41,653 nucleotides of DNA from Robiginitomaculum sp. (GTDB lineage Bacteria; Pseudomonadota; Alphaproteobacteria; Caulobacterales; Maricaulaceae): contig JAESUG010000167.1 in the NCBI GenBank assembly GCA_016763185.1, forward strand, positions 1-41,653, in the 5' to 3' direction. A model generated the notes under the pieces. The model was not told the DNA's origin, did not search any database, and was given only the letters and a program-made list of their open reading frames with translations. The translations under genes and the position numbers were made by a program. Shown here in pieces: positions 1 through 20,140 of the stretch (the first letter of the stretch is position 1; every line of letters begins with the position of its first letter).

Positions 1-96
1 CGTTACGAAAATATCGATGCCCGGGTAAAGCCCGCCGACCACCGTTTCCAGCAGATCCGCCAGCAATGTGTCATCTTCCAGAATAAGTGCCTTCAT
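1..96 (-). CDS. Response regulator, N-terminal receiver fragment (partial, runs off left edge)
   Basis: Reverse complement reads MKALILEDDTLLADLLETVVGGLYPGIDIFVT; the ILEDD acidic pocket is typical of REC domains. Truncated at the window edge. Confidence 0.6.
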   Translation of the reverse strand, partial: MKALILEDDTLLADLLETVVGGLYPGIDIFVT

Positions 97-107
97 AACG
101 TTACGCG

Positions 108-1805
108 TCATCCCTGATGGAAAATCGTTACGCCGTTACGGCCCCCTTTCTTTCGCTCGTAAAGGGCCTGATCCGCTGCATTGAGCGCATCACCGCCGGA
201 CTCAAATGCTTCCAGCGCGGCAATACCAACGCTGAGGGTAACCGACAGGCTGGCGCCATCATTGTTGAACGACAGGTCTGAGAATGCCTCACAGATCTGA
301 GTCATGACTGACTGCCCTTCCTGCGTCGTACACTCCGGTAAAACCACTGCAAACTCCTCTCCGCCATACCGCCCGATCATGTCGGTGGAACGCAATCGTT
401 GCCTGAGCAGGCTAGCGAGCGCTTTGATGACAATATCGCCCATTCTATGCCCGTATTGATCATTGACCTTCTTGAAATGATCAAGGTCCAGCATGGCGAC
501 AACGGAGGAATGTGACAATCGCTTGCAGCGGGCCTGCTCCTTATCAACTTCCTGCTTTATATACGAATGCTTCAACAGGCCCGTAAGGCTGTCCCGTATC
601 AGAAGCTCGTTAAGCTGACGGGCTCGATAGCAGCGGATCTGAGCCGCGCGCACGAGATAGCTGTCGGACACGGGCTTGGTCAGAAATTCATCCGCCCCTT
701 TTGCCATGGCTTCGAGCTGAACCTGCTTATCCTGCTCAGAGGACAGGTAAATGATCGGCAGACTGACCCATTCGGGATCAAAACGAACCAGCTTCGCCAC
801 CGTGGGTCCGGAATAAGCCCCCATACGAACATCCAGCAGCATTATGTCGGGAGAGAACTCCGAGAGCTCCAACAGCACCGTCTCGGGATTACTGATGGCG
901 CGGACGTTAAAGCCAGCTCCTTCAAGAACCGCTTGGTAGTGCGCTGCAAGATCTTCATCGTCATCCAGGATCAGGATTTTCCCGGAAACCGTTCGGCTCT
1001 GCTCGCTGACCAAGCGTTCGATGCTTTCCGCCAGCAGGGTTGCATCAACCGGTTCCGTAATGAGTGCATCTGCCCCGTTATCAGCCAGAGCATACCGATT
1101 CCTGAAATCGTCCTTGCGCCCGATGCAAATGAGCGGTGGTTTCAATGTGTTCTCGTTCCCGGCCTTGGCTTCAAGCACCGCAGACACCTCTAAAAGTGCC
1201 TCCTCACCGGTCACCACGAGGGTTACTCCCTGCGTCCCGTTGAGTGAGAGGCTGGAGACCTCCTGGCGCGATATCGAGAAACCGTAGTTTGAGAGCGCGT
1301 ACTCCAGAAAAACCTGAGAACCTTCTGACAATCCACACAGGACAACCCGGATATCCGGGGCCGTCAGACTATAAGGATCGTCTAACCGCTCAGAGCCTTG
1401 GTTACTGTGGGGCGCTGACACCGACGTTTCATCCAGCAAAGAACGCAGGTGCCCTGCCTGTGTCAGGGTATCGATAATATGCGGGGTTTCCTCACCCGGA
1501 ACCTCATGGCTACTGTCGGGATGTAACGGGTACTTTTCCACCAATGGCTTCAGGCGTTGTTCCAGCCTTCGCGCCTCTGCCCCCAATGCCTCATATCCGA
1601 AGGTTCCGGCAGAGCCGGCCAGACGATGAAGTAGCTGGTAGGCCGACATCACATCTTCACGCAGCAGTCGCTGCTCCTGACCACCCCCGGTTACCCGTGA
1701 AGCAACTTCGCTCAACTGATCGAGTTCCCCCTCCGACTTACCACGGAAGCTGAGTCGCAATTGCGCGAGTTTATCCGCGATATCCGCTTTTGGATCTTTT
1801 CCCAT
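108..1805 (-). CDS. Diguanylate cyclase with Hpt-REC(degenerate)-REC-GGDEF architecture
   Basis: Hpt motif HRLAGSAGTFG; receiver ILILDDDEDLA...DIMLLDVRM; GGEEF active site with RSTD (RxxD I-site) five residues upstream. Confidence 0.9.
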   Translation of the reverse strand: MGKDPKADIADKLAQLRLSFRGKSEGELDQLSEVASRVTGGGQEQRLLREDVMSAYQLLHRLAGSAGTFGYEALGAEARRLEQRLKPLVEKYPLHPDSSHEVPGEETPHIIDTLTQAGHLRSLLDETSVSAPHSNQGSERLDDPYSLTAPDIRVVLCGLSEGSQVFLEYALSNYGFSISRQEVSSLSLNGTQGVTLVVTGEEALLEVSAVLEAKAGNENTLKPPLICIGRKDDFRNRYALADNGADALITEPVDATLLAESIERLVSEQSRTVSGKILILDDDEDLAAHYQAVLEGAGFNVRAISNPETVLLELSEFSPDIMLLDVRMGAYSGPTVAKLVRFDPEWVSLPIIYLSSEQDKQVQLEAMAKGADEFLTKPVSDSYLVRAAQIRCYRARQLNELLIRDSLTGLLKHSYIKQEVDKEQARCKRLSHSSVVAMLDLDHFKKVNDQYGHRMGDIVIKALASLLRQRLRSTDMIGRYGGEEFAVVLPECTTQEGQSVMTQICEAFSDLSFNNDGASLSVTLSVGIAALEAFESGGDALNAADQALYERKKGGRNGVTIFHQG

Positions 1806-1911
1806 AAAAGGTCTGAGGCCTCGATTTTTTACTAATATAACCGGTTCAACTAGGCTAATCTTCTTTCATCACAGAACATTATCCGGAAAAACGCAACAGC
1901 GAGGCACTTCA

Positions 1912-3726
1912 TTGCGATCAGGCAAATCGCTCTCCCTTAGTAGTCGCGTAGCCATAATCATTGGCGGCGGCAGTCTTGTAACCGTCCTGGCCATTATTGC
2001 GATCGCCTACCAGGCCCTGGTACAGGACTTTGAAGACCTGCTCACCCATCGTCAGATTCTCGAAGCTGCAAGAACCTCGGATCAGGTCGACCAGAAGCTT
2101 CAGCTTCGACTGAATTCTCTGTCAGCATTCGCCTCACAGCTCGCCGACGACAACCTTCCGGACCAGGCTGCTCTGGAGATCGCGCTGAATCGCCAAACAA
2201 CAATCCAGGATCTGTTCCCGGCGGCGCTTCTCATTTTCGATGAGAACGGATGTGCCGTGGCGGAGAATGTTTACGTCCCAAATCGTATTGGTACCTGCTA
2301 CCTGGATCGCCCTCACTTCCGGGAAGCCCTGGAGAAACGAACCCCCATCGTCAGCAAGCCTATTATCGGACGAACCACTGGCAGACCCCTGCTCTCGTTT
2401 CTTGCACCCATCGAAACGGATGAAGGGGATTTTCTCGGGTTCGCAGGCGGCACCCTGGATCTGGGCAAGACCAGTCTATTACCCGAAAACCGCAACATGG
2501 GTTTGTATGAATCACAGGGTATCGAGAAAATCATCGACACGGAAAACTTTCTGTACGTGGATGCCGGCAATGGCTCCCAGAACATCGAACCCCTGCCGCC
2601 TCCTGGCGCAGACGCGCTGACAGACGCAGCGCTATCCGGCATCACGTTCGGACAGGTCAACGGCCAGGATGGTCAGCCCCTGATATACGCCACCAATCAC
2701 CTGCAACGGCTGGGGTGGGTCTTCGTCCGTGCTGTTCCCTATGATCAGGCAACAACACCCGCCCGACAATCCTTTCTCCAGTTCTTCAGCATCAGCCTGC
2801 TGATCACTCTGGTGATCGCCGCGTTAAGCTACCTGCTGGTCAAGAGCACCATGTCGCCACTGGACCGAATGACGACGCGTATAAAGCACATGGCTGAACA
2901 ACCGGATTCTGCCATGCGGTTGGGCGAGTCCGGCATTCCGGAGGTCAGCAACCTGGCCGGGGCCTTCAATCGACTTCTGGAGGAACGTGACGGCCTGGAC
3001 AGGCTCAAAGATCATTTCATGTCCTCGGTCAGTCACGAACTTCGTACGCCACTGACGTCACTGACTGGCGCTCTGAAGCTGCTCTCTTCCGGCACCACCG
3101 GACCACTCAGCGAAAAAAGCCAGAGCATGGCAAACCTCGCCCTGAGAAATGGCGAGCGTCTGCAACTGCTGGTGTCGGATTTGCTCGACTTCAACAAACT
3201 GTCCGATGGCAGTCTCAAAGTGCGAATTCAAAGCGAAGCGATCCAACCGATACTTTACGGCACCGTTGAGGACAACAACACGATGGCTGCTGAACATCAT
3301 GTCCGGTTGATGTCAGACAGCGGTGAGCTACCACATATACTCTGTGACAAGCACCGGCTGAGGCAGATTCTGGACAACTACGTCAGCAACGCCATCAAGT
3401 TCTCCCCCAGGAACGGAGTGGTCAGGATAAAAGCCCGGCTCCACTCACCGGAATACGTCAGAGTCACCGTTAGTGATCAGGGCTCTGGAGTACCGGATTC
3501 TTTTGCCGACAGCGTGTTCAAACGATTTGCACAGGCCGAAACCGGCACCACCCGTTCGGTAAAGGGCACGGGGCTGGGGCTTGCCATTTGTGCCGAACTG
3601 GCAACGCTGATGCATGCAGAGGTTGGCTACTACAATGATCAGGGCGCGCATTTCTGGGTCGATATGCCCACATCCGGATCCAGTGAGGCATTGTCGACCG
3701 TCGCTGATGAGGAAACAGACTCGTGA
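1912..3726 (+). CDS. Membrane sensor histidine kinase (periplasmic sensor, HAMP, HisKA, HATPase_c)
   Basis: N-terminal TM, second TM near residue 300, HAMP-like region, SSVSHELRTPLTSLTGAL H-box, DNYVSNAIKFSP N-box, GTGLGLAI G-box. TTG start. Confidence 0.88.
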   Translation: MRSGKSLSLSSRVAIIIGGGSLVTVLAIIAIAYQALVQDFEDLLTHRQILEAARTSDQVDQKLQLRLNSLSAFASQLADDNLPDQAALEIALNRQTTIQDLFPAALLIFDENGCAVAENVYVPNRIGTCYLDRPHFREALEKRTPIVSKPIIGRTTGRPLLSFLAPIETDEGDFLGFAGGTLDLGKTSLLPENRNMGLYESQGIEKIIDTENFLYVDAGNGSQNIEPLPPPGADALTDAALSGITFGQVNGQDGQPLIYATNHLQRLGWVFVRAVPYDQATTPARQSFLQFFSISLLITLVIAALSYLLVKSTMSPLDRMTTRIKHMAEQPDSAMRLGESGIPEVSNLAGAFNRLLEERDGLDRLKDHFMSSVSHELRTPLTSLTGALKLLSSGTTGPLSEKSQSMANLALRNGERLQLLVSDLLDFNKLSDGSLKVRIQSEAIQPILYGTVEDNNTMAAEHHVRLMSDSGELPHILCDKHRLRQILDNYVSNAIKFSPRNGVVRIKARLHSPEYVRVTVSDQGSGVPDSFADSVFKRFAQAETGTTRSVKGTGLGLAICAELATLMHAEVGYYNDQGAHFWVDMPTSGSSEALSTVADEETDS

Positions 3727-6185
3727 TAGCACCCGAAAGCCCATTGAATGAGGCTGTACGGCTTCTCGCGCTGAAGCGAACTCACCTGCTCGATACGTCA
3801 CCAGAGGAGCGATTTGATCGCTTTACTCGCATGGCCAAACTGGCCTTCGACGTCCCCATTGCCCTGGTGTCACTGGTCGACGACAAGCGGCAATGGTTCA
3901 AATCCTGTCAGGGACTGGAGGCCAGGGAGACCCCCAGGGACATCTCTTTCTGCGGCCACGCCATCCTCAGTGATCGTCTGTTCATTGTCGAGGACACCCA
4001 CGAGGATTCACGATTTGCCGATAACCCGCTCGTTACCGGCCCGCCACACATTCGCTTCTACGCCGGTGCTCAACTCCGCAGCCATGAAGGTTATCGCCTG
4101 GGCACTCTCTGCATCATAGACACCCGGCCACGATCGCTCGACGGCGATCAACGCATGCTTTTGGAAGAGCTGGCCCGATGTGTCGATGAAGAGATCAATG
4201 ACTTCGAAGCGAGTAAATCCCGCCAGGAACAACTCGAGAAGACCCGGATTCTGAGTGCACTGAACAACCTGACGGTGGACGCCTCCGCGCCCCTGGAACA
4301 AAAAATAGACATGGCCCTGGATCTGGGGCGCCAACACCTTGAACTGGAAACCGGCATCGTCAGCGAAATCACCACCGATGTCTATACGGTTCGCTGGTTC
4401 AGAGCGCCGGACGACTCTCCACTGGAGGCCGGCCTGTCACTACCGGTGGAGCAAACCTATTGCGCACTGATGCTCGCAAAAGGCGACCATCTGGCGATCA
4501 GCCATATGGGCGACTCGCGCTATCGCCATCAGTCGTGCTATGCCCAGATGGGCCTCGAGAGCTATATTGCGGCGCCCATAGAGTTTGATGGCAAGCTCTT
4601 CGGCACGCTTAATTTTTCCTCGGTATCGCCAAGATCCAGACCGTTCACGGATCTGGATCGCCTGTTTATCGTATGGCTGGCACAGTGGATGGCAGCCCTT
4701 CTCCAGCAACATTCCCATGAGGATACGCTGCGAAAGCTGTCCGAAAACGTGCCTGGAATGCTTTATCAGTATCAGGTACTCCAGGATGGTGAGTCGAGGT
4801 TCCTCTACAGCAGCGACGGCATACGTGATATTTACGGCGTTTCTCCGGAGACTGTTATAGAGGATGCCAGCATTGCCTTTGATGCCATACACCCCGACGA
4901 CATTGAATATGTAGCCGCTTCCATCGACCGTTCCCAGGAGGCACTGGCGGTTTGGGAGTCCGAGTTTCGGGTCAGAGCTCCGGATGGGAACTGGATTTGG
5001 GTCGAGGGCCGGGCCACGCCGGAACGGCGCCCGGACGGTAGCGTCATCTGGCATGGGTTTCTCGCCAACGTCGATGAAAAGAAGCGCTCGCAGCTTGCAC
5101 TCGCGGAACGAGAGCAACTGCTGCGTACCTTATTCGAACTGTCACCGATTGGCATTCTTCTGACCAGTTTCAGAAGCGGACAGAACTTTGATGTTAACGC
5201 GGCATTGCTCGAGTACAGCGGGTACTCACACACCGAGTTCCTGGCACTGAACTACTGGGACGTCACTCCCGGGGACTACATGGAACAATCTCAGCAAGCC
5301 ATCGCTGATTTGAAAGAACACGGGCGGTTCGGCCCCGTGGAGCAGGAGTTTATCCGCAAGGATGGCACCCGGTTCCCGATTCTCTTCCAGGGCGTTCTGG
5401 TGGAGCGTGCCGACAACGAACCACTGGTGTGGTCGCTGGTTGAGGACATATCAGAGCGCCGCAAGGTTGACCGGATGAAAAACGAGTTCATCTCCACCGT
5501 CAGCCATGAACTACGAACCCCCCTGACGTCAATATCTGGCTCCCTTGGATTGATCGCGGGCGGGGTTTTTGGCCATCTACCTGAAAAAGTCAAAGCCATG
5601 GTGGCTATCGCAGCCCGCAACAGCGACCAACTAAAGCATCTGATTGATGATCTGCTGGATATGGAAAAGCTGGTCTCCGGAAAAATGGAACTGCGGATGC
5701 ACAGTGAGAACCTCAGCGCGATCATTCAGGACAGCCTGGATCGAACATCAACCTACGCGGTTGATCGGCAAATCTCACTTCGGTTCGAAAATCACCATCC
5801 CTGGGTCAAAGCCGTTATCGATGCCCGGCGCCTGGGCCAGGCACTCGACAACCTGCTGTCCAACGCCATCAAGTTTTCTCCGCCGGAGGCCGAGGTTGTC
5901 ATACTGACACACCTTCATGACGGCCTTTTTCGCATCGAAGTCACGGACTATGGCACAGGCATACCGGAAGCCTTCCGAGCCAGGATATTCGAAAAGTTCG
6001 CCCAGGCTGACAGCTCCGATACCCGAGGCCGTGGCGGTACGGGCCTCGGGCTGGCCATTACCCGGGAGATCATGTCGCAAATGGGCGGCGGCGTGGGGTT
6101 CAAATCCACCGAGGGATACGGCTCGACGTTCTGGCTGGACATCAAACCCGATGAGAGTGACAAACCCGATGAGAGTGACGAGTAA
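3723..6185 (+). CDS. GAF/PAS multi-sensor histidine kinase
   Basis: Two GAF-like regions, two PAS regions, STVSHELRTPLTSISGSLGL H-box, [24 protein letters not shown] start overlapping the TGA of the previous gene. Confidence 0.9.
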   Translation: MIAPESPLNEAVRLLALKRTHLLDTSPEERFDRFTRMAKLAFDVPIALVSLVDDKRQWFKSCQGLEARETPRDISFCGHAILSDRLFIVEDTHEDSRFADNPLVTGPPHIRFYAGAQLRSHEGYRLGTLCIIDTRPRSLDGDQRMLLEELARCVDEEINDFEASKSRQEQLEKTRILSALNNLTVDASAPLEQKIDMALDLGRQHLELETGIVSEITTDVYTVRWFRAPDDSPLEAGLSLPVEQTYCALMLAKGDHLAISHMGDSRYRHQSCYAQMGLESYIAAPIEFDGKLFGTLNFSSVSPRSRPFTDLDRLFIVWLAQWMAALLQQHSHEDTLRKLSENVPGMLYQYQVLQDGESRFLYSSDGIRDIYGVSPETVIEDASIAFDAIHPDDIEYVAASIDRSQEALAVWESEFRVRAPDGNWIWVEGRATPERRPDGSVIWHGFLANVDEKKRSQLALAEREQLLRTLFELSPIGILLTSFRSGQNFDVNAALLEYSGYSHTEFLALNYWDVTPGDYMEQSQQAIADLKEHGRFGPVEQEFIRKDGTRFPILFQGVLVERADNEPLVWSLVEDISERRKVDRMKNEFISTVSHELRTPLTSISGSLGLIAGGVFGHLPEKVKAMVAIAARNSDQLKHLIDDLLDMEKLVSGKMELRMHSENLSAIIQDSLDRTSTYAVDRQISLRFENHHPWVKAVIDARRLGQALDNLLSNAIKFSPPEAEVVILTHLHDGLFRIEVTDYGTGIPEAFRARIFEKFAQADSSDTRGRGGTGLGLAITREIMSQMGGGVGFKSTEGYGSTFWLDIKPDESDKPDESDE
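6144..6179 (+). repeat. 18-bp perfect tandem duplication (2 copies) at the 3' end of the GAF/PAS kinase
   Basis: aaacccgatgagagtgac repeated twice, encoding KPDESD-KPDESD. Confidence 0.9.
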
Positions 6186-6191
6186 TCGATA

Positions 6192-8111
6192 GTGGCGGCA
6201 CAAACGCGGGCTAACGTGTTTCATCGTTTGATCTGGGCTTCAAGGCTGGGCGTTCTGCTGTTGGTCATTGTAGTCGCGGTTTCCCTTGATGCATCCAGCT
6301 CTTCCAGCCACCGCAACGATGTCCGTCAGCAGTGGCAGGAAAAAACGGATGAGATAAGCCTCAAGCTGCAAAGTGCCATACTGCAGAACATCCAGACCGT
6401 GTGGGGACTGGCCGCCAACGTCGCGATACAACCCGATATCGACGGCCAACGCTTCCGGGAACTGGCCTCGGTCATCTTCAGCCTGGCACCGGAACTCCGA
6501 AACATCGGACTGGCTCCGGATTTCGTGATTCGCCATGTCTACCCACTGGCCGGCAATGAGGCTGCGATCGGTCTCGACCTGACCGCACAGAGCTTGTCGC
6601 AAGATCAGATCGAGATGCTGCTCAACACCCGTCGCGTGGTGTTCACCGGCCCCATTGATCTGGTTCAGGGCGGGCAGGGGCTGGCGGGGCGTGTTCCCAT
6701 ATTCGAACAGGCCTCGGGCGATTTCTGGGGGGTTATTTCAGTGATACTGGACCTTCAGAAACTGTACTCGTCGATAGGGCTGGATAGGTTGCAAGACGAC
6801 TTCAATGTAGCGATCTCGTCGTCGGCCGACGTTAATGACACTCAGTCGGTTTTTTTCTCCACACGCCCCTTTCAATGGGAAGATCCAGTCACCAGCACGA
6901 TTCGCATGAGAGGCGCTACCTGGGTGGTGTTTGCCGAACCAGTCGGGGGCTGGCCAAACCACCCCAGTCAGCCCTGGATATTCCGCGGCAGCCTGTTCGC
7001 GATGCTGGTCATTGTCAGCGGTGCTGTTTTCTGGCTCACCAGCCTGATGTCACGGGATCGCGAAATGCAGCGGCGGCTCTGGGGACTCTTCGAACTGGCC
7101 CCCATGGGCATCGGGCTGTTCAGTGTCACCTCCAATCGACTGCTCCGGGCAAACCCAACGTTCGAAAACCAGTTTGGCAGATCCGTCCAGTCACTGGATT
7201 TCTTCGACCAACCGCTTGATGTCCATGGAGAGCCGCTGGCCAACAAGCCCAGGGTTCAGGAAACCCTTCGGGAACATGCCAGACTCAGCGGCCTCGAAGG
7301 CTACTTCATGACGCCAGGGCAGGAACTGGCCCCCGTCATGCTCCACGGGCTGCAACTGGACGATGACGGCAACGAACCCGTTGTCTGGCTGATCACCGAG
7401 GACATTTCAGAGCGGAAGAAAGTCGACCACCTGAAGAACGAGTTCATTTCCACTGTCAGCCACGAGCTTCGCACCCCACTGACCTCGATTTCCGGCTCCC
7501 TCGGGCTACTGGCCAACAATGCCGTCGGCGAGCTGCCGGAGAAGGCCTCGAAACTGGCGCACATCGCCTATCGGAACAGCCAACAGCTTACGTTCCTGAT
7601 CAACGACTTACTCGATATGGAAAAGCTTGTGGCCGGCAAAATGCCCTTCCGTAGCGAACACCATGTTCTGCAAAATCTTGTTCACGAGAGTGTTGAAAAC
7701 ATCGCAACCTTTGCCCAACAGCGAGACATTCATCTTCAGGTGGCTGAACTGCCAGCCGTGACAGTTCATGTGGATCGTCAGCGCCTGAACCAGGCCATCA
7801 CCAACCTGTTGTCCAACGCCATCAAGTTTTCTCCGGCAGGGTCCTCCGTCGACATTTTCGCCAGCCAGCGCGGAGAGTCGGTTCGGCTGTGTATCAGAGA
7901 CCATGGTGAGGGCGTCGCCCCGCATTTTCGGGAGCATATTTTTAAGAAGTTCTCACAAGCTGATTCGTCGGACCGAAGAGCCAGTGGCGGAACCGGGCTC
8001 GGTCTGGCCATCACACGGGAGCTGATGGCGCGTATGAAGGGCACGGTGGACTATGAATCCGTTCCGGGCGAGGGGGCTACGTTCTGGCTGGAACTGCCAG
8101 TGGCGGGGTAA
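6192..8111 (+). CDS. CHASE-domain sensor histidine kinase
   Basis: CHASE-like motif (IRHVYPLAGNEAAIGLDL), flanking TM segments, [44 protein letters not shown] start 6 bp after the previous stop. Confidence 0.88.
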   Translation: MAAQTRANVFHRLIWASRLGVLLLVIVVAVSLDASSSSSHRNDVRQQWQEKTDEISLKLQSAILQNIQTVWGLAANVAIQPDIDGQRFRELASVIFSLAPELRNIGLAPDFVIRHVYPLAGNEAAIGLDLTAQSLSQDQIEMLLNTRRVVFTGPIDLVQGGQGLAGRVPIFEQASGDFWGVISVILDLQKLYSSIGLDRLQDDFNVAISSSADVNDTQSVFFSTRPFQWEDPVTSTIRMRGATWVVFAEPVGGWPNHPSQPWIFRGSLFAMLVIVSGAVFWLTSLMSRDREMQRRLWGLFELAPMGIGLFSVTSNRLLRANPTFENQFGRSVQSLDFFDQPLDVHGEPLANKPRVQETLREHARLSGLEGYFMTPGQELAPVMLHGLQLDDDGNEPVVWLITEDISERKKVDHLKNEFISTVSHELRTPLTSISGSLGLLANNAVGELPEKASKLAHIAYRNSQQLTFLINDLLDMEKLVAGKMPFRSEHHVLQNLVHESVENIATFAQQRDIHLQVAELPAVTVHVDRQRLNQAITNLLSNAIKFSPAGSSVDIFASQRGESVRLCIRDHGEGVAPHFREHIFKKFSQADSSDRRASGGTGLGLAITRELMARMKGTVDYESVPGEGATFWLELPVAG

Positions 8112-8174
8112 TGGGTAACTGAGTATTGAGAGGCCCGGCAGGTTGCCCTGCCAGACCAACGCCAGACCAAACAG

Positions 8175-10859
8175 TCACGCCGACTTGAGCATCTCCCGCA
8201 CGACGTAGTGCAGGATACCGCCGTGGCGGTAATAAACCGCTTCGTTGGCGGTGTCGATCCGGGACAGTAGTTCACAGGTCTCGGTCTTGCCGTCCGGATA
8301 GGTCACCGTCATTTCGAGTGTCTGACCCGGCTTGATGTCACCGGACAGGCCCTTGATGCTGATGGTTTCCTCGCCCGTCAGCTTCAGGCTCTTGCGGTCG
8401 ACCCCGTCCTTGAACTGCAGCGGCATCACGCCCATACCGATCAGGTTGGAGCGGTGGATACGCTCGTAGGACTCGGCAACCACGGCCTTCACGCCCAGCA
8501 AGCGGGTACCTTTCGCAGCCCAGTCACGGCTGGAGCCAGTGCCGTATTCCTTGCCGGCAATGACCACCAGGGGGGTGTCCTCTTCCTGATACTTCATGGC
8601 CGCATCGTAGATCGGCATCTGCTCGCCAGTGGGGATGTGTTTGGTGAATCCACCCTCAACGCCATCAAGCATCTCGTTTTTAATACGAATATTGGCAAAT
8701 GTGCCGCGCATCATCACCTCGTGATTGCCCCGGCGCGAGCCGTAGGAATTAAAATCTGTTGGCGATATTTGATGTGATTTTAGATAATTGCCTGCCGGTG
8801 ATGAAGCAGCAATGGCACCTGCCGGAGAAATATGGTCCGTGGTAATACTGTCGCCAAACAAACCCAAAATCCGGGCGCGAGACACATCTTCAATTTTTGG
8901 TAAATCCAGCGTCATGCCGGTAAAAAACGGTGCGTTGCGAATATACGTAGACCCCGGCGCCCAGTCATAGGTATCACCGCCCGAGGTTTCAATTTTCTGC
9001 CAACCCTCATCCCCTTTGAACACGTCCGCATAGCGAGCGGTGAACATTTCAGGCGTTACACTATCGCGCACGGTTTTGGCGATCTCGGCAGAGGATGGCC
9101 AAATATCGCGCATGTAAACCGGATTGCCGTCGGTATCCATGCCCAAGGGCTCTGTGGTCAGATTAATATTCATGGTCCCGGCAATCGCATAGGCCACCAC
9201 CAACGGCGGCGAGGCCAAATAATTGGCGCGAATATCAGGACCGATCCGGCCTTCAAAATTACGATTGCCCGAAAGTACTGAACACGAGGTGATATTGTTC
9301 TCGTTCACTGCCTTTGAGATGGCGGGCGGCAACGGGCCTGAATTCCCAATACAAGTCGTACAGCCATAGCCGACCAAATTAAACCCAAGCGCATCTAAAT
9401 CGTCTTGCAAACCGGCTTTGAGCAAATAATCGGTGACCACTTTCGACCCCGGCGCCAATGAGGTTTTTACCCACGGCTTGACGGTTAATCCCTTGGCCCG
9501 CGCATTTCGTGCCAACAGACCCGCACCCAGCATCACCGATGGGTTCGAGGTATTGGTACACGACGTAATCGCCGCGATGACCACATCGCCATGGCCTAGA
9601 TCAAAATCCTCGCCCTCTACGGTAAAACGCTCGTCGCCACCGGTTTTTATACCAAATTCACCGGCCAGTGAACCGGCAAAACTTTGTGGGGCTTCGGACA
9701 ATAACACTCGATCTTGCGGGCGTTTTGGGCCAGAAAGTGACGGCACAACCTCGTCCATATTGAGCTGTAAGCTGTCGGTAAATACGGGTTCAACCCCGCG
9801 TTCGCGCCAGAGACCTTGGGTCTTGGCATACACTTCAACCAATTTGACCCGCGCCGGATCGCGCCCTGTGGACCTTAGATAAAGCAAGGTGTCATCATCC
9901 ACCGGGAAAAACCCGCAGGTTGCCCCATATTCCGGTGCCATATTGGCGATGGTTGCTTGGTCTTCGAGCGATAAATGGTCCAGCCCATCGCCATAAAATT
10001 CAACAAATTTACCAACCACCCCACGCTTGCGGAGCATTTGCACCACGGTGAGCACCAAATCGGTGGCGGTTGCCCCTTCGGGGAGCTTGCCTTCTAGTTT
10101 GAAGCCGATCACTTCGGGGATGAGCATGGATATTGGCTGACCCAACATCGCAGCTTCGGCCTCAATACCCCCAACACCCCAGCCCAAAACTGAAATGCCG
10201 TTGATCATTGTGGTATGGCTATCGGTGCCAACCAAACTATCAGGATAAGCCATGGTTTCGCCGTCCACATCTTCCGTCCAAACGGTTTTGGCCAAATATT
10301 CAAGATTGACCTGATGACAGATCCCAGTGCCCGGTGGCACCACCCGTAAATTTTTGAACGCCGAACCACCCCAGCGTAAAAACGTATAGCGCTCGTTATT
10401 TCGCTCATATTCGCGGGCGACATTTTTCTCGAAACTGTCCTCACCCGCAAAATAATCAACCATCACCGAATGATCAATCACTAGATCCACCGGCACCAAC
10501 GGGTTAATCGCTGCCGCCCCTGCCCCCAGCGCCAGCGCCGCATCGCGCATGGCGGCCAGATCAACCACCGCTGGCACCCCGGTAAAGTCTTGCATCAACA
10601 CCCTGGCCGGAGAAAACGCAATTTCATGGTTCGAGCTTTGGGTTTCCAGCCAAGTCGCAATCGCCGTAATGTCCTCGCGCTTCACATGTACACCGTCTTC
10701 TTTACGCAGCAGGTTTTCCAGCAAAACTTTTAACGAAAACGGCAATTTTGAAATACCGGCCAAGCCATTGGCCTCGGCTTTTTTCAAGTCGAAATAGACA
10801 TATGATTTACCATCAACGTCCAAATTTGAACGACAATTAAAACTATCAGGATGAGCCAT
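8175..10859 (-). CDS. acnA: Aconitate hydratase A; nucleotide composition suggests a mosaic gene with a breakpoint near 8.65-8.70 kb
   Basis: Full-length AcnA with AAITSCTNTSNPSVM and GCTTCIGNSGPLP Fe-S motifs. Start at MAHPDSFN, preceded by aggaaatga. The track ORF extends upstream to 11228, but 10859 is the likely start. Confidence 0.92.
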   Translation of the reverse strand: MAHPDSFNCRSNLDVDGKSYVYFDLKKAEANGLAGISKLPFSLKVLLENLLRKEDGVHVKREDITAIATWLETQSSNHEIAFSPARVLMQDFTGVPAVVDLAAMRDAALALGAGAAAINPLVPVDLVIDHSVMVDYFAGEDSFEKNVAREYERNNERYTFLRWGGSAFKNLRVVPPGTGICHQVNLEYLAKTVWTEDVDGETMAYPDSLVGTDSHTTMINGISVLGWGVGGIEAEAAMLGQPISMLIPEVIGFKLEGKLPEGATATDLVLTVVQMLRKRGVVGKFVEFYGDGLDHLSLEDQATIANMAPEYGATCGFFPVDDDTLLYLRSTGRDPARVKLVEVYAKTQGLWRERGVEPVFTDSLQLNMDEVVPSLSGPKRPQDRVLLSEAPQSFAGSLAGEFGIKTGGDERFTVEGEDFDLGHGDVVIAAITSCTNTSNPSVMLGAGLLARNARAKGLTVKPWVKTSLAPGSKVVTDYLLKAGLQDDLDALGFNLVGYGCTTCIGNSGPLPPAISKAVNENNITSCSVLSGNRNFEGRIGPDIRANYLASPPLVVAYAIAGTMNINLTTEPLGMDTDGNPVYMRDIWPSSAEIAKTVRDSVTPEMFTARYADVFKGDEGWQKIETSGGDTYDWAPGSTYIRNAPFFTGMTLDLPKIEDVSRARILGLFGDSITTDHISPAGAIAASSPAGNYLKSHQISPTDFNSYGSRRGNHEVMMRGTFANIRIKNEMLDGVEGGFTKHIPTGEQMPIYDAAMKYQEEDTPLVVIAGKEYGTGSSRDWAAKGTRLLGVKAVVAESYERIHRSNLIGMGVMPLQFKDGVDRKSLKLTGEETISIKGLSGDIKPGQTLEMTVTYPDGKTETCELLSRIDTANEAVYYRHGGILHYVVREMLKSA

Positions 10860-11422: not shown

Positions 11423-12259
11423 ATGACCAAAAAAACCCGCTTTATATTTCCACTTTTGGCATCTGTTGCTTTGTTGGGGCTAACTGCATGTGAGCATTAT
11501 GGTACCGCAGCAAAGGTTGAAACCCCGGTGGCTGCAAATGTTACGCCAGAGCCACGCGCGGACCAGATCAAGCCACACAAGCATAAAAAAATGAAGGCCC
11601 GGTTAGCAAAAATGAAAGCTCATTTTGCAAAAATGGATACCAATAGCGATGGCATGGTAAGTGCCGCCGAGCATGAAGCTAAGCATATTGCCAAATTTGA
11701 AACGCTTGATCTGGATGCATCCGGCACTGTTTCATTGGAAGAGTTTGCGACGAAACGTAAAGGTCCGAAGCCAACAGAAGAAGCTCATTTGAAAAAAATG
11801 CGCAAAGCGCACATGAAAAAGAAACACAAGTTTTCCAAAATGGACGCAGATACCAGCGGCGATATTACCCAAGCCGAATTTTTGGTTTTTCCTGGCAAAA
11901 TGTTTGCCAAATTGGATGCCAATGCCGATGGCTCCGTCGATATGGCTGAGTATAAAGCGCACAGATCACACAAAAAAAACATAGGCAAAGGTAAGCATAA
12001 GGCTATGGGCAAACACAAGCGCCATAAGAAACATGCTAAAATGAAAGCTCATTTTGCCAAAATAGACGCCGATACAGATGGGTCGATCAACATGGCTGAG
12101 TTCAAGGCCTATAAGGTAGCCAAAAAAACCAAAACTGAAAACAATGACGGCAAAGACAAAGCGGCAAAAATGAAATCCTACTTTGCCAACATGGATGCTA
12201 ATGACGATGGCTTAGTGAATTGGGACGAGTTTCACGCCAAGCACATGTCTAAAAAATAA
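11423..12259 (+). CDS. EF-hand repeat lipoprotein, Lys/His rich
   Basis: Signal peptide with lipobox LTAC; six EF-hand-type loops (DTNSDGMVSAAE, DLDASGTVSLEE, DADTSGDITQAE, DANADGSVDMAE, DADTDGSINMAE, DANDDGLVNWDE). Confidence 0.85.
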   Translation: MTKKTRFIFPLLASVALLGLTACEHYGTAAKVETPVAANVTPEPRADQIKPHKHKKMKARLAKMKAHFAKMDTNSDGMVSAAEHEAKHIAKFETLDLDASGTVSLEEFATKRKGPKPTEEAHLKKMRKAHMKKKHKFSKMDADTSGDITQAEFLVFPGKMFAKLDANADGSVDMAEYKAHRSHKKNIGKGKHKAMGKHKRHKKHAKMKAHFAKIDADTDGSINMAEFKAYKVAKKTKTENNDGKDKAAKMKSYFANMDANDDGLVNWDEFHAKHMSKK

Positions 12260-15688: not shown

Positions 15689-17281
15689 TCACCCCCGCGC
15701 ATCTTCGAGGATCATTTGTGCGGCTTTTTCGGCGATCATCAAGGTTGGGGCATTGGTATTGCCGGATGTGAGGCGCGGCATAATCGAAGCATCAACCACT
15801 CGTAAACCACCAATGCCATGCACCCGTAACCGCTCGTCGACCACCGCTAGTTTGTCTTGACCCATTTTACAGGTTCCAACTGGATGGTATAAAGTCGAGC
15901 CAGCGCCGCGCAAATAACCCTCCCAATCCGCATCCGTTTGCACTTGCTGTCCGGGTGTGTCTTCAAAATCTCGAAAATCATCAAAGGCTTTGCCATGGAA
16001 CATCTCACGCATCCATTTTAGTCCGTAAACGGTAGAGCGAACATCTTCTTCGGCGGAGAGATAATTGCAAAACACTTTGGGTTTGGCCGCAGGATCGGAT
16101 GAACCGGCGCGCACCCAGCCGCGGCTTTGCGGGCGCATTTGGTAGACCGCGCCTAACATGCCCGGATATTTGCGTGGCTTCATACCGCCGCTTTCAAGGC
16201 TGGCACCCAGAAAATGAAACTGTAAATCCGGGGTTTCCAACTCTGGGCGCGATTTTATGAACGCCCCAATATGCGCCGGTGCAATCGCCATCGCTCCGGT
16301 TTTCGTCGTCAAATAGCGCAGCACCTCCCAAACCAATGGCAGACCTTGCACCCGATGGTTATAGCCCACGCGTTTGGTTAGTTTGTACGATACTGCACCA
16401 CTAAAATGGTCCATCAAATTTTCACCAACACCGGGCAGTTCATGGCGCACCTCGACCCCGATATCTCGCAAGACCTGCGCCGGGCCAATACCGGAAATTT
16501 GCAGCAAATGCGGACTGTTAAATGCGCCGCCAGAGACGATAACTTCAACGTTGGCACGGGCGGTTTTGGGTTGACCCTTGTCAACGAAATTTACCCCCAC
16601 GCATTTTTTACCTTCCAAGATCAAACCACCGGCTTGGGCTTCGGTCAGCACGGTTAAGTTGGGGCGAGATTTTGCGGGGTTCAAATAGCCAGTGGCGGCA
16701 CTAAAGCGCTTACCGTCTTTGATCGAGGTTTGAAAATAGCCAACCCCCTCTTGGTCAAGTTGGTTCAGGTCCGTATGGCGCGCAACGCCCATATCCGCCA
16801 CGCCATCTATTACCCGATCCGAGACAAAATCGGTTTCAGCAAAATCCGTAACCGCCATGGGTCCGCCGGCCCCGCGAAGCTGGCTTAGCCCCTGTTGGTG
16901 GTCCTCAATCGCCTTGAACAACGGCAATACCTGTTCCCAGCTCCACCCGGTATTTCCAGCTTGCGCCCATAGATCAAAATCTTGCGGCTGGCAGCGCACC
17001 CACAACATGCCGTTGATCGATGATGAGCCACCCAATACCTTACCCCGTGGTTGCGGAATTTTACGGTTGTTCAATTGCGGTTCGGCCTCGGTTTCATACA
17101 TCCAGTTATGGTTTTTATCGTCCAGCAATTTCATAAAACCTGCTGGCATATGGATGATTGCAGCCGTATCCGCAGGGCCAGCCTCTAGCAATAACACGTT
17201 GGTTTTAGGGTTTTTCGAGAGCCGATTGGCCAACACACAACCCGCAGAACCCGCCCCAATAATGATATAATCAAACTGCAT
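15689..17281 (-). CDS. GMC family FAD-dependent oxidoreductase (choline/alcohol dehydrogenase-like)
   Basis: FAD-binding DYIIIGAGSAGCVLANRLS; GMC signatures PRGKVLGGSSSINGM and VIVSGGAFNSPHLLQISGIGP; C-terminal GLRVVDASIMPRLTSGNTNAPTLMIAEKAA. Confidence 0.93.
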   Translation of the reverse strand: MQFDYIIIGAGSAGCVLANRLSKNPKTNVLLLEAGPADTAAIIHMPAGFMKLLDDKNHNWMYETEAEPQLNNRKIPQPRGKVLGGSSSINGMLWVRCQPQDFDLWAQAGNTGWSWEQVLPLFKAIEDHQQGLSQLRGAGGPMAVTDFAETDFVSDRVIDGVADMGVARHTDLNQLDQEGVGYFQTSIKDGKRFSAATGYLNPAKSRPNLTVLTEAQAGGLILEGKKCVGVNFVDKGQPKTARANVEVIVSGGAFNSPHLLQISGIGPAQVLRDIGVEVRHELPGVGENLMDHFSGAVSYKLTKRVGYNHRVQGLPLVWEVLRYLTTKTGAMAIAPAHIGAFIKSRPELETPDLQFHFLGASLESGGMKPRKYPGMLGAVYQMRPQSRGWVRAGSSDPAAKPKVFCNYLSAEEDVRSTVYGLKWMREMFHGKAFDDFRDFEDTPGQQVQTDADWEGYLRGAGSTLYHPVGTCKMGQDKLAVVDERLRVHGIGGLRVVDASIMPRLTSGNTNAPTLMIAEKAAQMILEDARG

Positions 17282-17288
17282 AAAAACC

Positions 17289-18839
17289 TCAAATTTCCGC
17301 AACAATCAGATGCGGGCCAGGCGTGGCCAACGCGTTCACCAACGCCGCATCAAACTCGCCAGCCGTTTTGGTGGAAACCGCTGGAACCCCAAAGCCTTCG
17401 GCCAATTTCACCCAGTTCATTTTTGGGTTGGATAAATCGAGCATGGAGCGCGCCACTGGCCCCGGCTCGCCGGCGCCAACTCTGGCCAGTTCAAAGTTTA
17501 AGATCAAATACGAATGATTGGCAAACACCACATTGATCACATTTTGCTTCTCGCGCGCTTGGCTCCACAGAGCCTGACAGGTATAGGCCGCCGCGCCATC
17601 GCCGCACAAAGCAAATACTTGTGCGTCGGGACAGGCCAGCGCCGCACCCACCGCTTGCGGCATGCCCGAACCAATAGCACCGCCGGTCAAACACAGCCAC
17701 TCGTGTTTCGGTCCGTTCTCTAACCAAGGAAACATCCCCAAACCGGACGTGGTAGCATCATCGCAAATGATCGAATTTTCCGGCATATGGCGCAGCAATG
17801 ACAAACCAACAAACCCCGGATTTAGTTTTTGCTCCGGGTCGAGCTTTGGCGCTTCTGCCCGTGTTGCCAATACCAAATCCGCCGGACAACCCAAAAAATC
17901 GGCCAACGCCACCAACCCTTGGGCGCTATCGGTATTGGCACCGCCAAGGGTGAAAACTTCCGCCGTTTTCGGTGTTAGTTCTGATGGCGCATCCGGATAG
18001 GCAAAAAATGAAACTGGTGGTTTGGTTCCGGCGATGAACAACAGATCGCAATCGGCCAGCTCTGTTTGTGCCTCCTCGCCAAAATAGCTAAGACGCTGGG
18101 CGCTAAAGCGGCCAACCCCACGTGAAATTCGAGCACTAAACGTTTCCGTCACCACGCGGCAATCTAGCAATTTGGCAATCCGTCCTGCCGCAAACAAGCC
18201 CATTTCTTGTACGGCGATATCGCCCAAATACAGCACGGGATTGGTGGCGGATTTTAATTTGGCGGCGGCTTCTTGTATGCGCTCCTCATCAATGGTTTGG
18301 CGGGTTGGCATGGGTTGTTTTGCAATGATTTTAGGTTCTTGGTCGGACCAAGCGCAATCGGCGGGCAAGATCAGTGAAGCAACACCCGGCTCCGGCCCAT
18401 AGGATTGTTGCACCGCTTCGACCGCCATTGCGGAAACTTGCGTTGGCGATGACACCGTGCCGGTCCAGCGCGACACTGGGGCGCAAAATCCAACAATGTC
18501 CGAGGTTAATGGCGCATCCAATTGCAAATGATCGCGGGCGTGATCGCCAACAATATTGACCACCGGTACTTTGGCGCGGCGCGCATTGTGCAAATTGGCC
18601 AAACCATTGGCCAATCCCGGCCCCAAATGCAGCAAGGTACACGCCGGTGTTCCCGTCATTCTAGCATAGCCATCCGCAGCACCACTGGCCACGCCTTCGA
18701 ACAAGCACAAGACGGACCGCATTTTTGGGTTGCGGTCCAGTGCCGCCACCATGTGCATTTCCGATGTTCCAGGATTGGTGAAACAAACTTCGACCCCTTG
18801 TTCGACCAAGGTTTTTACTAAGCTTTCGGCTGCAAACAT
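17289..18839 (-). CDS. Thiamine diphosphate-dependent enzyme, acetolactate synthase large-subunit-like / benzoylformate decarboxylase-like
   Basis: N-terminal FTNPGTSEMHMVAAL and LFEGVASGAADGYARMTG; ThDP motif GDGAAAYTCQALWSQAREKQNVINVVFANHSYLIL. ATG at 18839 with ggagag upstream. Confidence 0.85.
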   Translation of the reverse strand: MFAAESLVKTLVEQGVEVCFTNPGTSEMHMVAALDRNPKMRSVLCLFEGVASGAADGYARMTGTPACTLLHLGPGLANGLANLHNARRAKVPVVNIVGDHARDHLQLDAPLTSDIVGFCAPVSRWTGTVSSPTQVSAMAVEAVQQSYGPEPGVASLILPADCAWSDQEPKIIAKQPMPTRQTIDEERIQEAAAKLKSATNPVLYLGDIAVQEMGLFAAGRIAKLLDCRVVTETFSARISRGVGRFSAQRLSYFGEEAQTELADCDLLFIAGTKPPVSFFAYPDAPSELTPKTAEVFTLGGANTDSAQGLVALADFLGCPADLVLATRAEAPKLDPEQKLNPGFVGLSLLRHMPENSIICDDATTSGLGMFPWLENGPKHEWLCLTGGAIGSGMPQAVGAALACPDAQVFALCGDGAAAYTCQALWSQAREKQNVINVVFANHSYLILNFELARVGAGEPGPVARSMLDLSNPKMNWVKLAEGFGVPAVSTKTAGEFDAALVNALATPGPHLIVAEI

Positions 18840-18905
18840 AGTTCTCTCCAATTTCGTCAGATGCTAAGGCCTTGCCGTGCCTTGGTCTAGCTGTAGTATT
18901 TGCCC

Positions 18906-19397
18906 ATGCGCAAAATACCGACATCTGATGAACTGATCCGTCTGCTTGCGCTTTCGCCATTGCCCGGTGAAGGCGGTTATTTTCGGCGCACCTATGCTGG
19001 CCAGCTGGACGCAAATGACCGTCCGGCCCATTCAGTGATATATTACCTACTCACCTCCACCCAGCCGTTTTCAGAACTACATTGGCTGCCGACGGCGGAA
19101 ACCTATCATTTTTATCTGGGCGAGCCGGTGCAAATGTTGATTTTGGAACCAGACAAACCTGGGCGCACATTGCGGTTGGGGCCGGATGTGCAAAACGGGC
19201 AACACGTACAATTTATGGTACCGGCAAATTGTTGGCATGGCTCAAAACTGGGCGGGGATGGGTACGCGTTATTGGGTACAACCATGACACCGGGGTATAT
19301 GGACGAAGATTACCGCGCTGGGGTCCGGGGTGACTTGCAACAACAGTTCCCTGAACACGAACACCTGATCCAACAAATGACGAAAGACCCACAATGA
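18906..19397 (+). CDS. DUF985 cupin-fold protein
   Basis: LPGEGGYFRRTY...HSVIYYLLTSTQPFSELHWLPTAETYHFYLGEPV...VPANCWHGSKL matches the DUF985 cupin pattern. Confidence 0.85.
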   Translation: MRKIPTSDELIRLLALSPLPGEGGYFRRTYAGQLDANDRPAHSVIYYLLTSTQPFSELHWLPTAETYHFYLGEPVQMLILEPDKPGRTLRLGPDVQNGQHVQFMVPANCWHGSKLGGDGYALLGTTMTPGYMDEDYRAGVRGDLQQQFPEHEHLIQQMTKDPQ

Positions 19398-20140
19398 AAC
19401 TATCTCAAAAAACCGCATTGATAACCGGAGCCAGCGGTGGAATTGGCGCGGTGATCGCACTTTGCTTTGCCGAAGCCGGGGCCAAAGTTTTGTTAGGGTA
19501 TGGGCAAAACCAACAAGGCGCAATTGATGTCAAAGCCAAAATAGAAGCCGGTGGCGGCCAAGCCGAACTCGCTGGCTTTGACGTCACAGATGAAGCCCCA
19601 GTCGAAGCCGCGTTTGCCAAGTTTGCGACCCAAAACCAAACGCCGGGTATTCTGATCAATAATGCCGGTGTGTTCAGTATCCAACCCTTGATGGACATGC
19701 GCGCTAAAGATTGGGATGAAGCCATGCGCCTTAATTTGCGCGGAACGTTTTTGTGTTCTCGCGAGGCGGTGGCCAGCGGCACGTGCCGGGTCATTGTCAA
19801 TATCGCATCCATTGCCGCCAATCTGTCCCACGAACATCTTAATCATTATTGTGCGGCCAAAGCCGGTGTGGTCTCTCTTACTCGCAATATGGCCCGCGAA
19901 TTTGGACCAGCCGGCGTGCGGGTCAATGCAGTATCTCCGGGATTGGTTTGGCGCGAGACCTTGGATGATGAATGGCCGCAAGGGGTGGAAAAATGGAACA
20001 ATACGGCCCCGTTGGGCCGCGTGGTCCAGCCCAAAGAAGTGGCCAAGGCTTGTTTATTTTTGGCTTCGGATGATGCAGCAGCGATCACCGGTATTGATCT
20101 AACCATTGATGCCGGGATTTCGGTGGTATTGCCGTTTTAG
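19394..20140 (+). CDS. SDR family oxidoreductase
   Basis: TGASGGIG Rossmann motif, NNAG, catalytic YCAAK; ATGA overlap with the upstream cupin gene. Confidence 0.9.
   Translation: MKLSQKTALITGASGGIGAVIALCFAEAGAKVLLGYGQNQQGAIDVKAKIEAGGGQAELAGFDVTDEAPVEAAFAKFATQNQTPGILINNAGVFSIQPLMDMRAKDWDEAMRLNLRGTFLCSREAVASGTCRVIVNIASIAANLSHEHLNHYCAAKAGVVSLTRNMAREFGPAGVRVNAVSPGLVWRETLDDEWPQGVEKWNNTAPLGRVVQPKEVAKACLFLASDDAAAITGIDLTIDAGISVVLPF

Follow-up and report, generated by a model that had tools for sequence, protein, structure and literature searches.

The window analysed here is the whole stretch of 41,653 nt, which constitutes an entire contig (C120) of a draft genome bin of 207 contigs totalling 2.47 Mb, with 93.6% completeness and 2.1% contamination. 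It contains an acnA open reading frame of 894 amino acids on the minus strand, in which Pfam identifies an Aconitase (PF00330) and an Aconitase_C (PF00694) domain. To the left of acnA, Pfam assigns a protein with GGDEF, receiver and Hpt domains (108-1805, minus strand) and three sensor histidine kinases (1912-8111, plus strand). To the right, positions 10860-41653 carry genes for an EF-hand protein, ispZ, ftsY, mtaB and further genes. The reading frame had been described as preserved across an internal joint, and translation confirms that it is open from 10859 to 8175.

The first-pass annotation had placed a break in composition inside acnA, between 8590 and 8770. The break is real and lies at 8664-8711, and the GC counts made by hand are exact (36/60 at 8401-8460 and 24/60 at 8641-8700). 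GC content amounts to 0.563 over 1-8663 and to 0.517 over 8712-41653. The reported change from CTG/CAG-rich to TTG/CAA-rich sequence is equally evident in codon usage. CTG accounts for 0.52 of the leucine codons in the left-hand genes and 0.64 in the C-terminal part of acnA, against 0.20 in its N-terminal part and 0.19 in the right-hand genes; the corresponding TTG shares are 0.09, 0.07, 0.39 and 0.42, and the ratio CAG/(CAG+CAA) is 0.68 in the left-hand versus 0.28 in the right-hand genes. Tetranucleotide z-profiles point the same way, with right-hand blocks correlating better among themselves (0.31-0.56) than with the two left-hand blocks (0.01-0.32). Since GC also drifts elsewhere in the window, from 0.43 to 0.58, a GC window alone is insufficient to pin the joint, and its position is instead pinned by comparison with relatives.

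The comparative analysis of the left arm identified positions 1-8663 as a foreign segment resembling the chromosome of Marinobacter salarius. Positions 1-8757 (8.76 kb) are collinear with the M. salarius R9SW1 chromosome (CP007152.1) at 95.65% DNA identity, and in 250-base steps the identity is mostly 98-99% between 5.0 and 8.5 kb. The histidine kinase encoded at 6192-8111 shares 99% protein identity with its R9SW1 counterpart, with Marinobacter ranking top in a scan of named genomes. The 3' end of acnA (8175-8663, minus strand) is of Marinobacter type: it differs from R9SW1 at only three bases (8226, 8475 and 8628), divergence begins at 8664, and its codon usage equals that of Marinobacter. 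The Marinobacter sequence extends to the contig end with no return to native sequence. Neither a continuation of this region nor a 5' part of a Marinobacter acnA was found on any other contig of the bin, an absence that is not absolute at 93.6% completeness. Phage records gave no match to positions 1-24000 of the window. A local dip in identity to M. salarius, to 83-88%, is seen at 1001-1750, in the region of the GGDEF gene, with flanks at about 90-98%; such a dip is expected for another strain of the same species or a sister species of M. salarius, and would reflect either strain-level variation at this locus or a recombination tract within the genus.

The right arm, in turn, is native to the genus of the bin. 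The 5' part of acnA (8712-10859, about 716 amino acids, minus strand) encodes a product with 74-87% identity to the N-terminal parts of AcnA in same-genus genomes. From acnA to about position 34.6 kb, gene order is collinear with one contig of a relative (G016), which carries DUF1223-acnA-EF-hand-ispZ-ftsY-mtaB and further genes in this order, and the composition of the flank resembles that of C155, a second contig of the bin described below. A change in gene context had also been proposed, and the separate comparison of the two sides upholds it: kinase and GGDEF genes matching M. salarius lie on the left, and genes matching same-genus genomes, in G016 order, on the right. Collinearity with G016 is broken at 15689-20140 by a GMC oxidoreductase, a thiamine-pyrophosphate enzyme and two small genes; these would represent an insertion specific to the lineage, placed between mtaB and the gene at 20137. 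The EF-hand-repeat protein upstream of acnA (11423-12259) has 39% identity to its positional counterpart in G016 and appears to be fast-evolving.

Phylogenetic trees of the two acnA halves (17-18 rows) conflict. In the N-half tree, the window gene groups with three genomes of the bin's own genus (G014-G016; support 100/100); in the C-half tree it groups with Marinobacter (100/100), and the acnA fragment of C155 groups with G016 (93/90). Among named plasmid-borne sequences, those closest to the N-terminal part come mostly from alphaproteobacterial large replicons (about 66%), and those closest to the C-terminal part from Halomonas and Acinetobacter; on this evidence the bin would be alphaproteobacterial. 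Both halves are ordinary AcnA domains, as in any AcnA-type aconitate hydratase, but in this case they stem from different bacterial classes. The open reading frame is hence an artificial hybrid.

A native counterpart of the missing acnA end was located elsewhere in the bin. Contig C155 (14,173 bases) has its start precisely at the joint: bases 1-26 of its plus strand, ATGCGCGGCACATTTGCCAATATTCG, are identical to window positions 8711 to 8686 read on the minus strand, and divergence from the window starts at base 27. In the whole 2.47-Mb bin, exact matches to this word occur only at C120:8686-8711(-) and C155:1-26(+). Positions 1-534 of C155 encode the last 177 residues of AcnA (Aconitase_C), followed at 609-1370 by a DUF1223 protein. 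All 13 same-genus loci compared carry acnA C-terminal parts that resemble C155 (70-85%) more than they resemble the window (63-67%), and DUF1223 directly follows acnA in 12 of them, the exception (L022) lying near a contig end; a kinase next to acnA is absent from all 13. Outside the genus, acnA C-terminal parts are about equally distant from C155 and from the window, as would be expected. The codon usage of C155 (TTG 0.45, CTG 0.17) equals that of the right half, and its tetranucleotide profile is also of the right-arm type. On these comparisons, the native acnA is best taken to continue into C155. The converse arrangement, in which C155 would be the foreign piece and the window acnA native throughout, might draw on the presence of both contigs in the same bin, but the sequence, order and codon usage of the C155 acnA end and DUF1223 gene correspond to those of same-genus genomes, and it is the left arm of the window that matches M. 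salarius; we give this arrangement almost no credence.

Beyond DUF1223, C155 carries (L005:1622-13542) genes for an outer-membrane efflux protein, HlyD-type and AcrB-type efflux genes and an M13 peptidase; these efflux and peptidase genes were not present in the G013-G016 regions read. At its far end (L005:14092-14173), C155 holds an 82-nt exact copy of sequence in contig C93 (L179, G000:C93). The copy contains ...CACCCCACGACTTGTTCGGGGGGTCC...CTGGACCCCCCG, and C93 has repeated CACCCCACGACT units; this is a dispersed, partly inverted repeat of the native genome, which probably breaks contigs. A fixed overlap of k=27 was considered and dropped, given that the far-end overlap of C155 is this 82-nt repeat and that the right-end word of C120 is unique.

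Base-by-base comparison resolves the fine structure of the joint. The shared word (8686-8711, minus strand) is native, an exact match to C155:1-26, and marks the point at which the assembly would have left the native gene. It lies within the conserved MRGTFANIR motif, among the best-conserved parts of the housekeeping gene acnA, where the switch falls, in agreement with the earlier placement of the joint in a highly conserved stretch. It is separated from the Marinobacter-type sequence by a transition patch of 22 nt (8664-8685, minus strand) that is identical to neither M. salarius R9SW1 nor C155 and shows seven mismatches to R9SW1 (8664, 8667, 8679-8682 and 8685). Searches of 369 genomes from the class to which M. 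salarius belongs (allowing up to three mismatches) and of 124 Marinobacter genomes found no match to the patch. The 26-nt word, present in the window and in C155, is likewise lacking in the acnA of four Marinobacter references, including R9SW1. Because the patch fits neither parent and the Marinobacter references lack the word, the jump may have run via a third acnA present in the sample; alternatively, the local allele of Marinobacter may differ at the patch. Positions 8712-8757 also resemble Marinobacter (43/46 bases), but native relatives match much of this stretch too, and the likeness mostly reflects common conservation of the motif.

With the two ancestries, the exact start of C155 and the native acnA-DUF1223 order observed directly, we infer a graph mechanism of the following kind. 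The assembler, as it extended the native acnA in the 3' direction, would have met a short word, the 26 nt of ATGCGCGGCACATTTGCCAATATTCG, common to another acnA in the sample. It would then have taken the wrong branch, via the 22-nt patch, into a chromosome resembling that of M. salarius and continued for 8.66 kb to the contig end, and the native branch would have been emitted as a separate contig, C155, starting at the same word. The event has the appearance of a mis-join of de Bruijn type at a short word within a conserved gene. As in other inter-species chimeric metagenome contigs, two genomes are joined in a conserved gene and the abandoned native branch starts at the joining word; nothing functional sets this contig apart, the one oddity being the patch that fits neither parent.

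Homologous recombination yielding a hybrid aconitase had been put forward as the alternative. It would require a fragment of at least 8.7 kb, with the Marinobacter acnA 3' end and the kinase cluster, to have been transferred between classes and recombined into the native acnA, producing a working enzyme; C155 would then represent the far side of the insertion, displaced by it. The preserved reading frame and the switch in a conserved stretch agree with such a transfer, and a single-crossover insertion could leave the native acnA 3' end elsewhere. An insertion does not, however, predict that C155 starts exactly at the switch word, which would need a coincidence. The Marinobacter segment runs to the contig end with native sequence never resuming, no second junction or 5' part of a Marinobacter acnA lies on any contig of the 93.6% complete bin (where absence is not absolute), and no same-genus genome examined contains the segment. 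Furthermore, only a very recent transfer would account for a segment that is still of Marinobacter composition and locally 98-99% identical. With C155 starting at the switch and no second junction in the bin, this alternative is not supported, and we regard it as very improbable. The reading favoured in the first-pass annotation, a metagenome-assembly or contaminant chimera through a conserved gene, is instead supported by the M. salarius-like left arm, the start of C155, the conflicting trees and the gene order. Taken on sequence comparison, the hybrid acnA is almost certainly the product of a mis-assembly that joined a piece of an M. salarius-like chromosome to a native contig.

The hybrid acnA is hence an assembly artefact and a feature of no organism. 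As a gene it is without biological meaning, but it serves as a clear caution. The species of the bin should not be assigned some 8.7 kb of the contig, including the three histidine kinases and the GGDEF protein, and window positions 1 to approximately 8685 should be removed from the bin. The hybrid AcnA should likewise be kept out of protein databases and should not be taken as a case of gene transfer.
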